From Stenotrophomonas raiganjensis (SeqCode) (lineage in GTDB: Bacteria > Pseudomonadota > Gammaproteobacteria > Xanthomonadales > Xanthomonadaceae): 64,000 bases of DNA. The notes beneath the pieces were generated by a model. The model was not told the DNA's origin. It saw only the letters and a program-made list of their open reading frames with translations, and made no database searches. The position numbers and the translations under genes are program-made. Of this stretch, positions 13,834 to 32,829 are shown piece after piece. Where the stretch lies: positions 56,524-120,523 of the forward strand of contig NZ_JAUTXR010000149.1 in assembly GCF_030658505.1 (NCBI RefSeq). The letters are read 5' to 3'. Numbering within the stretch: the stretch's first letter is position 1; each line of letters begins with the position of its first letter.

Positions 13834-13944
13834 TGCCGACCGTTGGTCGGCACGCTCCCCCCGCCGGAGCTACATCCCTGTAGAGCCGAGCCATGCTCGG
13901 CTGATGTCTACCGGCAGAAGCAGCCGAGCATGGCTCGGCTCTAC
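13834..13944. repeat. SMAG inverted pair after dapE
   Basis: A GCCGACC/GGTCGGC hairpin (13835-13854) is followed by an inverted SMAG dimer: GTAGAGCCGAGCCATGCTCGG begins at 13880 and its reverse complement ends in CTAC at 13944. It lies between convergent genes. The GTAG of the right arm puts a second TAG directly behind the TAG stop of the Sel1 lipoprotein gene. Confidence 0.85.
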
Positions 13945-14822
13945 TATTCCGAAAAAAGGAAGAACGGCGGCTTGATCGCTTTTTCCCAGTAACTCGGCGC
14001 CGCCATGTAGAAGCGCTGCGCTTCGGCCTTCGCGAACCAGCCGGCCGCCGCCCCGGTGTCCTTCTCCACGCCGGGCGCACTCTGGCCCAACAGCAGCCCG
14101 GCAAAGTACTGGCCAAACACATTGCCCTGCTCCCCGGCACGCTGGTACAGCTGCAGCGCACGCGCCGGATCGCGCGGCAGCCCCATGCCTTTCTCCAGCA
14201 GCGCACCCAGGTCCACCTGCGCTTCGGCATCGCCACGCGCGGCGCGACGCTGGATCTGCGCAACCAGAGGATGCACGGTGTCACCCTGTGCGGCCACCGC
14301 ATCCGGCAATCGCGATGAACGGCTTGGATAGCGCTGGTAGATCATCGCGCGCAGGTCCCAGCGCAGTGCCTGCTGTGCGTCGCCCTGCTGGCGATAGGCA
14401 GCGGCCAGTTCATGGAACGCGTAGGGATTGCCGTGGTTTGCCGCGTCCAGGTAGGCGCGCTCGCCGCGTCGCCACGAAGCACGCAGCACCGGTGCAGGAT
14501 CGATGCGGGGGCTGTCGGCATGCCGCAGCGTGCCGGAAATCCAGATCCGGCCCAGTGCTTCTTCCGCCTTGGTGTTGTGGAAGGTCCAGGGGGTGATCGC
14601 TGCGGCACGCTCGTAGTAGGCGATGGCACGCGGATCGTTGAAGCGCTCGAAGGTCTCTGCGGTATCCCAGGCACCGTCAAAGCTGCCATCGTTCCCGCGT
14701 TGCTCCAGGGCCTGCAGCTGTGCCGGTGGCAGCCTGGAGGGCGGGGGCAGGGTCTGGCAGGCCGCCAGGCCCAGGCAGAGCAGGGCGGCCACGGCCACGG
14801 TGCATCCATTGCGGTGTTGCAT
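13944..14822 (-). CDS. Sel1-repeat lipoprotein
   Basis: A 292-residue predicted lipoprotein: a signal peptide ends in the lipobox LGLAAC, with Cys about residue 22. The body is a helical repeat protein; clear Sel1-like repeats are seen as GDAEAQVDLGALLEKGMGLPRDPARALQ and the following GNVFGQYFAGLLLGQ, with looser TPR-like units before (PRAIAYYERAAAIT; NPYAFHELAAAYRQQGDAQQALRW). Such proteins are usually protein-protein scaffolds in the periplasm; no partner is evident here. I start at ATG 14822, which begins the signal peptide; a GTG three codons upstream (14831) is also possible. It is transcribed away from the asnB leader. Confidence 0.8.
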   Translation of the reverse strand: MQHRNGCTVAVAALLCLGLAACQTLPPPSRLPPAQLQALEQRGNDGSFDGAWDTAETFERFNDPRAIAYYERAAAITPWTFHNTKAEEALGRIWISGTLRHADSPRIDPAPVLRASWRRGERAYLDAANHGNPYAFHELAAAYRQQGDAQQALRWDLRAMIYQRYPSRSSRLPDAVAAQGDTVHPLVAQIQRRAARGDAEAQVDLGALLEKGMGLPRDPARALQLYQRAGEQGNVFGQYFAGLLLGQSAPGVEKDTGAAAGWFAKAEAQRFYMAAPSYWEKAIKPPFFLFSE

Positions 14823-14883
14823 TCCTGCCACACGGTTCAGGGCGGGCCATTATGCGCTCCAGGCGTGGTTGCCGACGCAACTG

Positions 14884-14912
14884 TTGCGCCGCGCCGGAAA
14901 CCGGGGTAGGGT
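14884..14912 (+). promoter_or_regulatory. predicted promoter of the asnB leader
   Basis: A -35-like TTGCGC (14884-14889) and a -10-like TAGGGT (14907-14912) are 17 nt apart. The expected start of transcription, 6-8 nt after the -10, falls at 14918-14920, on or next to the A of the leader-peptide ATG. If right, the leader peptide is read from a leaderless or nearly leaderless RNA. Confidence 0.45.
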
Positions 14913-14919
14913 CGATGCC

Positions 14920-15021
14920 ATGTCGATCCGCTTGGCCACCGCCGTCAATAACAACAACCGCAATAATCTGCGCGCGAACAATCGTGCGCGGCCGATGCGG
15001 GACTGCGCCCTGGGTAGATAG
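14920..15021 (+). CDS. Asn-rich leader peptide of asnB
   Basis: A 33-codon open frame from ATG 14920 to TAG 15019-15021. Eight of the residues are Asn, clustered in codons 10-13, 15-16 and 20-21, with both AAU and AAC used; there is no other amino-acid cluster except the Arg residues between. The frame stops 29 nt before a terminator hairpin and 140 nt before asparagine synthetase. This is the arrangement of ribosome-mediated attenuation peptides such as those of trp, his and leu operons: ribosome stalling at Asn codons when Asn-tRNA is short would report the need for the downstream enzyme. The peptide itself probably has no function. Confidence 0.8.
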   Translation: MSIRLATAVNNNNRNNLRANNRARPMRDCALGR

Positions 15022-15095
15022 ACAGCAACACACGCCCGGACACCAGAAAACCCGCATCGGCCGATGCGGGTTTTTTTTGTGCCCGGGCGCAGTCC
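14971..15095 (+). promoter_or_regulatory. transcription attenuator controlling asnB
   Basis: Mutually exclusive RNA pairings are visible. Segment 2 (14990-15001, GGCCGATGCGGG) is perfectly complementary over 12 nt to segment 3 (15051-15062), the antiterminator. Segment 3 also pairs with segment 4 (15059-15070), which gives the terminator. A short hairpin (14971-14975 with 14986-14990) holding Asn codons 20-21 in its loop could act as segment 1:2. A further 11-nt complementarity joins 15000-15010 to 15085-15095, beyond the terminator. Ribosome stalling at the first Asn cluster would leave segment 2 free to capture segment 3 and let RNA polymerase reach asnB. Confidence 0.75.
15047..15078 (+). 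terminator. intrinsic terminator of the asnB attenuator
   Basis: CCCGCATC (15051-15058) pairs with GATGCGGG (15063-15070) around a GGCC turn, flanked by AAAA on the left and eight T residues on the right (15071-15078). It stands between the leader peptide and asnB, so it must be bypassed for asnB expression. Confidence 0.9.
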
Positions 15096-15161
15096 TTCCC
15101 GGGCCTGGATGGCCGGTCGAACACCCCTCCCTCAGTGAATCCCCCAAACAGGAGCTCTGCC

Positions 15162-16853
15162 ATGTGTTCGATCTTCGGAATCTTCGGCCTGCAGGCCGGT
15201 GACGATCTTCCCGCTCTGCGTCGCCACGCGCTGGAACTGTCGCAGCGCCAGCGCCACCGTGGGCCCGACTGGAGTGGCGTATACCTCGACGAAGGTGCGT
15301 TGCTGGTCCACGAGCGGCTGGCCATCGTCGACCCGGCCGGTGGTTCGCAGCCGCTGCTGTCGGCCGATGGCCAGCTGGCGCTGGCGGTCAACGGCGAGAT
15401 CTACAACCACCAGCAACTGAAGGCCGCGCTGACCACCGCCTACGGCTTCCAGACCGGTTCGGACTGTGAAGTGATCAACGCGCTGTACCGCCAGGGCGGA
15501 TCGCCGGCGCAGTGGCTGGAGCGGCTCAACGGCATCTTCGCCTTCGCCCTGTGGGATCGTGCTGCCGGCCGCGTGCTGGTGGCACGCGACCCGGTTGGCG
15601 TGGTTCCGCTGTACTGGGGACATGACGCGCAGGGGCGCCTGCGCGTGGCGTCGGAAATGAAGGCGCTGGTCGACACCTGTGCCGATGTCGCGCAGTTCCC
15701 GCCGGGCCACTATTTCGACAGTGAAAGCGGCGAGTTGGTGCGCTACTACCAGCAGCCGTGGCGCGACTATGCCGACGTGCAGGGCCGCCAGGCCAATCTG
15801 GCTGAGCTTCGCCAAGCCTTTGAACATGCGGTGGAACGCCAGCTGATGAGCGACGTGCCGTACGGCGTGCTGCTGTCCGGTGGCCTGGATTCATCGCTGG
15901 TGGCCGCAGTGGCTGCTCGCTACGCGCGGCGCCGCATCGAGGACGGTGGCCAGACCGAAGCCTGGTGGCCGCGGTTGCACTCGTTCGCGATCGGGCTGAA
16001 GGGATCGCCCGATCTGGCCGCTGCCGCGGTTGCTGCCGAAGCGCTGGGTACTGTGCACCACGGGTTCGAATACACCTTCGAAGAAGGCCTGGACGTGCTG
16101 CCGGAAGTGATCCGCCACATCGAAACCTACGACGTCACCACCATCCGCGCGTCGACGCCGATGTTCCTGCTGGCGCGGCGGATCAAGGCGATGGGCGTGA
16201 AGATGGTGCTGTCCGGCGAAGGCAGCGACGAGATCTTCGGTGGCTACCTGTACTTCCATAAAGCGCCGGATGCGCGTGAATTCCACGATGAGCTGGTGCG
16301 CAAGCTCGACGCGCTGCACAACTACGACTGCCTGCGTGCCAACAAGGCGATGATGGCCTGGGGCGTGGAGCCGCGCGTACCGTTCCTTGATCGCGAATTC
16401 CTTGATGTGGCGATGTGCTTCGATGCCGCGCACAAGATGGTCGGTGCAGGCTTCGGTGGCCGCCGCATCGAGAAGGCAGTGCTGCGCGAGGCGTTCGACG
16501 GCTACCTGCCGGACAGCATCCTGTGGCGGCAGAAGGAACAGTTCAGCGACGGCGTCGGCTATGGCTGGATCGATGGGTTGAAGGCACATGCCGAAGCGCA
16601 GGTCAGTGACCGCGTACTGGCGGCCGCCGACAAGCGCTTCCCGCACAACCCGCCGCAGACCAAGGAGGCCTACTACTACCGTCACCTGTTCGAGCAGTTC
16701 TTCCCGAGCCGTGCGGCCGCCGAGACCGTGCCGGGCGGCAAGTCCATCGCCTGCTCGTCGCCGGCGGCCATTGCCTGGGACGCCAGCTTCGCGGCGGCGG
16801 CCGACCCTTCCGGACGCGCGATCGCCGGCGTGCACGAACAAGCCCTGGCGTAA
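15162..16853 (+). CDS. asnB: asparagine synthase B (glutamine-hydrolysing)
   Basis: Makes asparagine from aspartate, ATP and glutamine. The 563-residue protein has the catalytic N-terminal Cys2 (MCSIFGIFGL) and Ntn-type glutaminase features (RGPDWSG, HERLAIVDP, NGEIYNH), about residues 2-190, then the synthetase domain with the pyrophosphate-binding SGGLDSSLVAA near residue 239, and GEGSDEIFGGYLYFHKAP and RVPFLDREFL further on. Length agrees with E. coli AsnB (554). The ATG at 15162 has GGAG at 15151-15154. It sits 84 nt behind the attenuator terminator and is the only gene obviously under its control. A GTAG palindrome pair follows the stop. Confidence 0.96.
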   Translation: MCSIFGIFGLQAGDDLPALRRHALELSQRQRHRGPDWSGVYLDEGALLVHERLAIVDPAGGSQPLLSADGQLALAVNGEIYNHQQLKAALTTAYGFQTGSDCEVINALYRQGGSPAQWLERLNGIFAFALWDRAAGRVLVARDPVGVVPLYWGHDAQGRLRVASEMKALVDTCADVAQFPPGHYFDSESGELVRYYQQPWRDYADVQGRQANLAELRQAFEHAVERQLMSDVPYGVLLSGGLDSSLVAAVAARYARRRIEDGGQTEAWWPRLHSFAIGLKGSPDLAAAAVAAEALGTVHHGFEYTFEEGLDVLPEVIRHIETYDVTTIRASTPMFLLARRIKAMGVKMVLSGEGSDEIFGGYLYFHKAPDAREFHDELVRKLDALHNYDCLRANKAMMAWGVEPRVPFLDREFLDVAMCFDAAHKMVGAGFGGRRIEKAVLREAFDGYLPDSILWRQKEQFSDGVGYGWIDGLKAHAEAQVSDRVLAAADKRFPHNPPQTKEAYYYRHLFEQFFPSRAAAETVPGGKSIACSSPAAIAWDASFAAAADPSGRAIAGVHEQALA

Positions 16854-30517: not shown

Positions 30518-30602
<85 letters not shown>

Positions 30603-32454: not shown

Positions 32455-32539
<85 letters not shown>

Positions 32540-32744: not shown

Positions 32745-32829
<85 letters not shown>

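Follow-up and report, generated by a model that had tools for sequence, protein, structure and literature searches.

A putative leader-peptide attenuator with asparagine codons upstream of asnB in Stenotrophomonas and its relatives

In proteobacteria, leader-peptide attenuators are known for the trp, his, thr, leu, ilv and phe operons, and other attenuators too have an antiterminator strand (segment 2) situated within the leader frame close to the stop codon. A main survey of attenuators in proteobacteria is that of Vitreschak et al. from 2004. Asparagine genes in Firmicutes are associated with T-box riboswitches, which sense tRNA charging and act through a choice between terminator and antiterminator; they do so by direct binding of uncharged tRNA, without any leader peptide. 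The subject of this study is the region upstream of asnB, the gene for asparagine synthetase B, in a 64,000-nucleotide (nt) stretch of Stenotrophomonas raiganjensis (contig NZ_JAUTXR010000149.1, positions 56,524 to 120,523), hereafter called the window. Comparison with relatives makes it very likely that asnB is controlled by ribosome-mediated attenuation of transcription in response to charged tRNA-Asn.

In its anatomy the asnB leader resembles the trp, his, thr, leu, ilv and phe attenuators, with a short frame carrying codons of the product amino acid, a choice between pairing of segments 2 and 3 (2:3) and of segments 3 and 4 (3:4), a terminator, and a biosynthetic gene downstream. It differs from them in that it would sense asparagine (Asn) and act on asnB, and in that most of the Asn leaders lack a Shine-Dalgarno sequence and have their start codon at the predicted transcription start. 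Its segment 2 also lies within the frame near the stop codon, a position for which no novelty is claimed. A terminator/antiterminator choice would be shared with T-boxes, but the asnB leader has a peptide frame, and no T-box, riboswitch or other Rfam leader was matched in the window at gathering scores (cmscan), the only matches being three tRNAs. According to passages of one report, the RNA of the trpL attenuator of Sinorhizobium meliloti (rnTrpL/peTrpL) begins with the leader ATG and is leaderless (PMC7298713). The asnB leader RNA apparently begins at its ATG as well, but it concerns Asn and not Trp and is found in another bacterial class, and no sequence relation is claimed.

No described Asn leader peptide was recognised in the open-licence literature searched, which consisted mostly of titles and the beginnings of abstracts. 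The passages retrieved from PMC2965389 contain neither 'asparagine' nor 'asnB', those from PMC1262725 do not contain 'asparagine', and those from PMC6685928, PMC5009743 and PMC5864092 present no Asn leader. Passages of two further papers give context on histidine attenuation (PMC9413887) and on leader peptides in C. glutamicum (PMC3890552), and in a passage that mentions no leader XCV1533 (AsnB2) was unchanged by quantitative reverse-transcription PCR (qRT-PCR) in an sX13 mutant (PMC3771888). By its anatomy the element is therefore filed as a leader-peptide attenuator, whose specificity and start arrangement were not found described together in the literature searched. If this assignment is correct, leader-peptide attenuation would extend to the sensing of asparagine, and asnB would have a likely regulator in Xanthomonas, Stenotrophomonas, Lysobacter, Luteimonas, Dyella, Rhodanobacter and relatives. 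The 167 leaders collected here, mostly leaderless in appearance, would then form a natural set in which leaderless initiation, the choice of control codons and the stall position are testable together.

Anatomy of the asnB leader

The features of the locus, in window positions, are as follows.

14884..14912, plus strand: predicted promoter, TTGCGC (14884-14889), 17 nt, TAGGGT (14907-14912), from direct reading and conserved spacing
14920..15021, plus strand: leader peptide frame MSIRLATAVNNNNRNNLRANNRARPMRDCALGR, Asn-rich and conserved, no Shine-Dalgarno sequence seen, probably leaderless
14947-14958, 14962-14967 and 14977-14982, plus strand: eight control Asn codons, read directly
14989..15001, plus strand: segment 2 (antiterminator strand) within the leader frame, a 13-nt perfect complement of 15051-15063
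15051..15063, plus strand: segment 3, the terminator left arm and loop, common to antiterminator and terminator
15051..15078, plus strand: intrinsic terminator with an 8-base-pair (bp) stem, GGCC loop and eight T, read directly
15150..15154, plus strand: Shine-Dalgarno sequence AGGAG of asnB, read directly (similar motifs precede asnB in 151/164 loci)
15162..16853, plus strand: asnB, glutamine-hydrolysing asparagine synthetase B, ATG at 15162, assigned by NCBIfam matches and presumed to be the regulated gene

The leader frame opens with an ATG at 14920 and runs over 33 codons to a TAG at 15019-15021, and eight of its 33 codons (10-13, 15-16 and 20-21) specify Asn. An earlier note on this DNA had described such a frame with its three Asn clusters, and its coordinates and codon positions proved correct on direct reading. 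It had also placed a terminator with eight T residues ahead of an asparagine synthetase, which is borne out: the hairpin CCCGCATC-GGCC-GATGCGGG (15051-15070) is followed by eight T (15071-15078), and the downstream protein is AsnB according to NCBIfam (NF006949, 861 bits against a cut-off of 499; TIGR01536, 425 bits). This protein is the sole full-length match in its own genome, four other places giving partial matches of 29-44% identity. For the complement of the left terminator arm the note had given 12 nt; the perfect pairing stands but the length does not, as the complement measures 13 nt (14989-15001 with 15051-15063) and extends one base into the right arm of the terminator. Segment 2 of the window ends 17 nt ahead of the leader stop codon. 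A consensus scan listed neither this terminator nor the leader promoter, and TTGCGC and TAGGGT each match the consensus hexamers at three positions, which is below the rule of the scan.

Pure chance is ruled out as an explanation of this arrangement by shuffling and by the conservation reported below. None of 2000 dinucleotide shuffles of positions 14832-15161 reached eight Asn codons in an open 14-codon window (maximum 5), and the longest complement with a spacing of at least 20 nt in 1000 shuffles of 14920-15077 was 11 nt, so that none equalled the 13 nt observed. At the rates of five neighbouring coding frames, the binomial probability of at least eight Asn in 33 codons is 1.9e-7. The predicted fold of 14905-15100 has an energy of -90.9 kcal/mol (z = -5.3). 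The pattern AAYAAYNNNAAYAAY occurs five times in the whole genome, one of them before asnB; the reversed control pattern is equally frequent (five times), so the count reflects rarity and not enrichment. The search for a second Asn leader in the same genome, made with this strict pattern only, gave the other four places, three of them in long open frames (308, 619 and 748 amino acids, aa) and one in a 53-aa frame.

Conservation of the Asn-rich leader among relatives

A locus was scored as having an Asn-rich frame where at least four Asn codons stood in an open 14-codon window at most 350 nt upstream of asnB. The family sample comprised 149 genomes, 132 of them with an AsnB match at E <= 1e-100, and upstream sequence was obtained for 130 of the 132 (the window's own, 29 loci and 100 further stretches), G023 and G143 being left out because their asnB lies at a contig edge; 80 named loci were examined in addition. 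Classes were assigned by hand from the family AsnB search, giving 115 loci with an AsnB at least 69% identical to that of the window and 15 with at most 67%. The named and unnamed sets share genomes, and the 210 loci reduce to 197 distinct upstream regions; the Asn counts that follow precede this reduction.

The earlier note had called for the Asn codons to be looked for in relatives, and they were found to be kept in the large majority. An Asn-rich frame precedes asnB in 106 of the 115 loci of the first class (reverse strand 0/115) and in 65 of the 80 named loci (reverse strand 0/80), and in none of the 15 family loci with the less similar AsnB. The 15 named loci without one comprise three that have a leader with three Asn (L048, L055 and L057), one with only 60 nt of upstream sequence (L077) and eleven titled outside the order.

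In the order sample (121 genomes, 77 with AsnB) all 57 loci outside the window's family and three inside it were taken. Two other families retain the Asn codons, f167 in 14/16 loci and f158 in 3/3, as does f1 (3/3). The two failures in f167 are L250, where a hairpin and a leader with three Asn are seen by eye, and L265, whose AsnB is 66% identical. The remaining families gave 1/16 (f165), 1/20 (f163), 0/1 (f161) and 0/1 (f160). On the reverse strand the rule scored 3/20 in f163 and none in the other families, so the result for f163 is no better than its control. By eye, the single scoring locus of f165 (L254) has no leader anatomy, and that of f163 (L263) has the leader MFAIYNTINTTNNRLLRSAGSF followed by a terminator with eight T. 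The L263 sequence is 561 bases long, encodes an AsnB 64% identical to that of the window and has a promoter-like site that lies further from the ATG than it does in the other leaders; the other 19 sampled f163 loci have no Asn-rich frame. This leader may be of separate origin or a relic.

Outside the order, an Asn-rich frame was found in 0/11 named loci (L068, L075, L103, L105, L107-L112 and L114), which were placed by title and might thus be misplaced, and in 0/6 class-level loci (L223 and L228-L232). This test is a small one, as AsnB of this class was seldom met in the class-level sample (above the cut-off in 7/276 genomes, three of which lie outside the family).

The variation among the conserved leaders bears on another explanation, namely that the frame encodes a small protein acting in trans, with Asn kept for the function of the peptide and a terminator that merely ends its transcript. 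A leader peptide with an additional role in trans is described in passages on peTrpL of Sinorhizobium (PMC7298713). Against such an origin of the pattern, the peptides differ greatly in length (20-48 aa in 140 of 146) and in the residues that flank the Asn runs, and what is kept are the Asn codons and the match of the frame end to the terminator arm, as expected of an attenuator. We therefore regard the small-protein explanation as highly unlikely, although the leader peptide of an attenuator may have a second role in trans besides attenuation.

Predicted translation and start of the leader frame

For codon and promoter analyses 167 of the 197 distinct regions were used, chosen for at least three Asn codons in a window, a choice that does not exclude AAR codons (R, purine). 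Omitted by hand were L068, L108, L111, L112, L114, L203, L212, L164, L167 and L173; also omitted were the other distant loci of L198-L212, those titled outside the order (L075, L103, L105, L107, L109 and L110) and L077 (60 nt). The terminator and arm set (164 leaders, 151 by rule) leaves out 13 hand-picked loci: L068, L108, L111, L112, L114, L203, L212, L164, L167, L135, L144, L171 and L173. Among these, L135 and L171 have a leader by eye, and that of L144, missed by the choice of window, was found in the promoter set.

Codon-level conservation points to translation of the leader frame. In the 167 leaders AAY codons (Y, pyrimidine; the Asn codons) number 982 and AAR codons 8, in windows chosen on AAN with any third base, which argues for selection on Asn codons rather than on nucleotides. 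In the other two frames of the same stretches Asn codons number 4 and 10, against 895 in frame (151 leaders). Many protein-binding RNA sites are A-rich and unpaired, and the Asn-codon runs are likewise A-rich and largely unpaired in the predicted fold, as might be expected of an untranslated AAY-rich element bound by a protein or another RNA. Such an element is hardly credible, however, in view of the AAY excess, the rarity of Asn codons in the other two frames and a start codon that stands at a fixed distance from a promoter-like element.

The two Asn codons are used about equally in the 164 leaders with an ATG (AAT 463, AAC 450), that is, AAU makes up 463/913. Among the other pyrimidine-ending codons of the same frames 363 end in T and 1885 in C (T-ending 363/2248), so AAU is far commoner than would be expected from the other codons; the five coding frames of the window have AAC 37 and AAT 12. 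AAU and AAC are read by one tRNA-Asn, the first anticodon base of which is normally queuosine. It is conceivable, if unlikely, that the leader is tuned in such a way that asnB expression also depends on how fast AAU is decoded, and through this on the queuosine status of tRNA-Asn. The other queuosine-read codons of the leaders give mixed support: a similar tendency is partly seen in His codons (T 31, C 44), weaker in Asp codons (T 11, C 32) and absent from Tyr codons (T 0, C 10).

A feature absent from the earlier note is that the leader frame appears to begin at the transcription start. In the window 7 nt separate TAGGGT from the leader ATG, and with the usual sigma-70 spacing transcription would start at about 14919-14920, on the first base of the ATG or one base ahead of it. 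Because the promoter spacing would put the first transcribed base at or next to the ATG, the asnB leader probably starts at its own ATG, as a leaderless mRNA. The spacing is widespread: in 80 of 96 single-ATG leaders the ATG is preceded at 6-7 nt by NANNNT (N, any base), and every one of the 80 carries TTG another 16-18 nt upstream. The reverse-strand control, with 1060 ATGs from these regions, gave 40 with NANNNT and 1 with both elements. A motif resembling a Shine-Dalgarno sequence (GGAG, GAGG or AGGA) precedes the leader ATG at 37/164 loci; CAGGAT as a -10 element includes this motif, and among the 112 loci with another -10 element the count is 3. The 18 of 164 leaders lacking NANNNT at 4-9 nt belong by title mostly to Dyella, Luteibacter, Rhodanobacter and kin, and several of them show by eye TCTAGT-like elements at the same distance. 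Counter-cases to a leaderless start, besides these 18, are three of the 167 leaders that lack an in-frame ATG, and L263, the 5' end of which is apparently longer.

Proposed terminator choice and sensing of charged tRNA-Asn

A hairpin with a T-rich tail was identified by a fixed rule in 151 of the 164 leaders, and in 100 of these 151 loci the left arm has its complement in a segment whose end lies 6-8 nt ahead of the leader stop. Complementarity between the two was 2913, compared with 2590 +/- 28 when arms were permuted among loci (200 permutations); with one locus per distinct arm (49 arms) it was 896, compared with 844 +/- 12 (300 permutations). A 5-nt core with its partner near the leader stop was present in 133/151 loci. 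The helix flanking the fixed core had 175 contiguous pairs against 122 +/- 9 (72 distinct combinations), a value that none of 2000 permutations reached, and sliding the partner by 1 to 3 bases left 20-102 pairs against 180 in register (73 combinations). Conservation of the 2:3 and 3:4 pairings, which the earlier note had named as a check, was thus found, with two-sided changes at some positions and values above the permuted or slid controls. These results support the view that segment 2 and the terminator arm change together, with pairing outside a core of 5-6 bp that is often partial. The choice between antiterminator and terminator by an Asn leader, as that note had proposed, gains support from this comparison, and regulation by Asn itself is what we infer.

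In fold models in which a ribosome masks the first Asn codon and segment 4 is absent, 8 bp or more between the left arm and upstream RNA were predicted in 78/149 loci, compared with 183/1490 shuffled leaders. With the ribosome at the leader stop, the terminator forms in 148/149. In the window sequence 2:3 pairing was favoured whether the ribosome was stalled at the first, the middle or the last Asn codon.

Several observations weigh against an attenuator of this kind. Nine of the 115 loci with a similar AsnB have fewer Asn codons than the rule demands; by eye, no leader is seen in L164, L167 and L173, and the other six (L129, L134, L142, L161, L140 and L194) have a leader with too few Asn. No matching core was found in 18/151 loci, and many loci have a short GC-rich antiterminator helix, in which 2:3 pairing spans only 5-7 bp. 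The permutation controls leave some shared ancestry in place. Pair types were compared in 85 distinct triples, in which the core is paired by construction; core substitutions were T-A for C-G in 6 triples at one position and G-T for G-C in 7 at another, and the 5'-side neighbour of the segment 3 core is paired in 69/85 (G-C 41, A-T 16, G-T 12). Further out, 2:3 pairing occurs in only 34-43 of the 85, with A-T, C-G, G-C, T-A and T-G all represented. In the folds a threshold of at least 4 bp is uninformative (149/149, or 148/149 in the first fold check, against 1149/1490 shuffled leaders), and the first check was dropped as support after this shuffled-leader control. When the full-length RNA was folded with segment 2 free, 2:3 was favoured over 3:4 in only 58/149 loci for a ribosome at the first Asn codon, 58 at the middle and 46 at the last, so that most loci would need co-transcriptional timing, that is, a kinetic decision.

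The other 13 of the 164 terminators also count on that side, being by eye GC-rich hairpins whose T-run is short or broken. At these loci the intrinsic terminator might be a weak one, which would suit a control that is translational or exerted via Rho, with the Asn-rich frame still translated and regulatory and no part played by an intrinsic terminator. Control of this type is quite improbable given the T-rich-tailed hairpins of the 151 leaders. Moreover, the hairpin of the window leaves the ribosome site uncovered, as its T-run stops at 15078 and the Shine-Dalgarno sequence of asnB starts only at 15150.

For the attenuator that is preferred here, translation, stalling, termination, readthrough and the response to Asn are deduced from sequence and may be pictured as follows. 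Transcription would begin at or next to the leader AUG, and judging from the promoter spacing a ribosome would load on the leaderless message. Where Asn-tRNA is plentiful, the ribosome would reach the stop codon and cover segment 2, leaving segment 3 to pair with segment 4; RNA polymerase would then halt at the T-run and release an RNA of about 159 nt. Where Asn is scarce, the ribosome would stall on the Asn codons with segment 2 free, and 2:3 could pair before segment 4 is made, with readthrough into asnB as the predicted outcome.

The charging route of tRNA-Asn fits such a loop. Asparaginyl-tRNA synthetase (AsnRS) scored over the cut-off in 144 of the 149 family genomes, the other five having weaker matches only, and GatB was found in 0/149 by a search that was positive in 12/14 control genomes. 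Charging of tRNA-Asn based on GatCAB, which would uncouple Asn-tRNA from free Asn, is ruled out by this absence of GatB. With AsnRS present and GatB absent, Asn-tRNA should come only from free Asn; since charging would depend on free Asn and AsnB makes free Asn, the loop would close on the product of the enzyme. Stalling of a ribosome at the Asn codons would in turn be a readout of Asn-tRNA. The 17/149 genomes without an AsnB match at 1e-100 were similar in this respect, with AsnRS over the cut-off in 16/17 and GatB in 0/17.

Some minor features of the window were also recorded. A perfect 11-nt complement (15000-15010 with 15085-15095) encloses the terminator; of the 14 loci chosen for comparison only L001 (the window) and L035 have it in its full length, and it was treated as local. 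Upstream of the leader lies a divergent gene (13944-14831, minus strand), which has no more than a weak match to NF033786 (33 bits, with the cut-off at 350). The three tRNA genes stand close together on the minus strand, at 30521-30602, 32458-32539 and 32748-32829, with identical scores of 53.4 bits.

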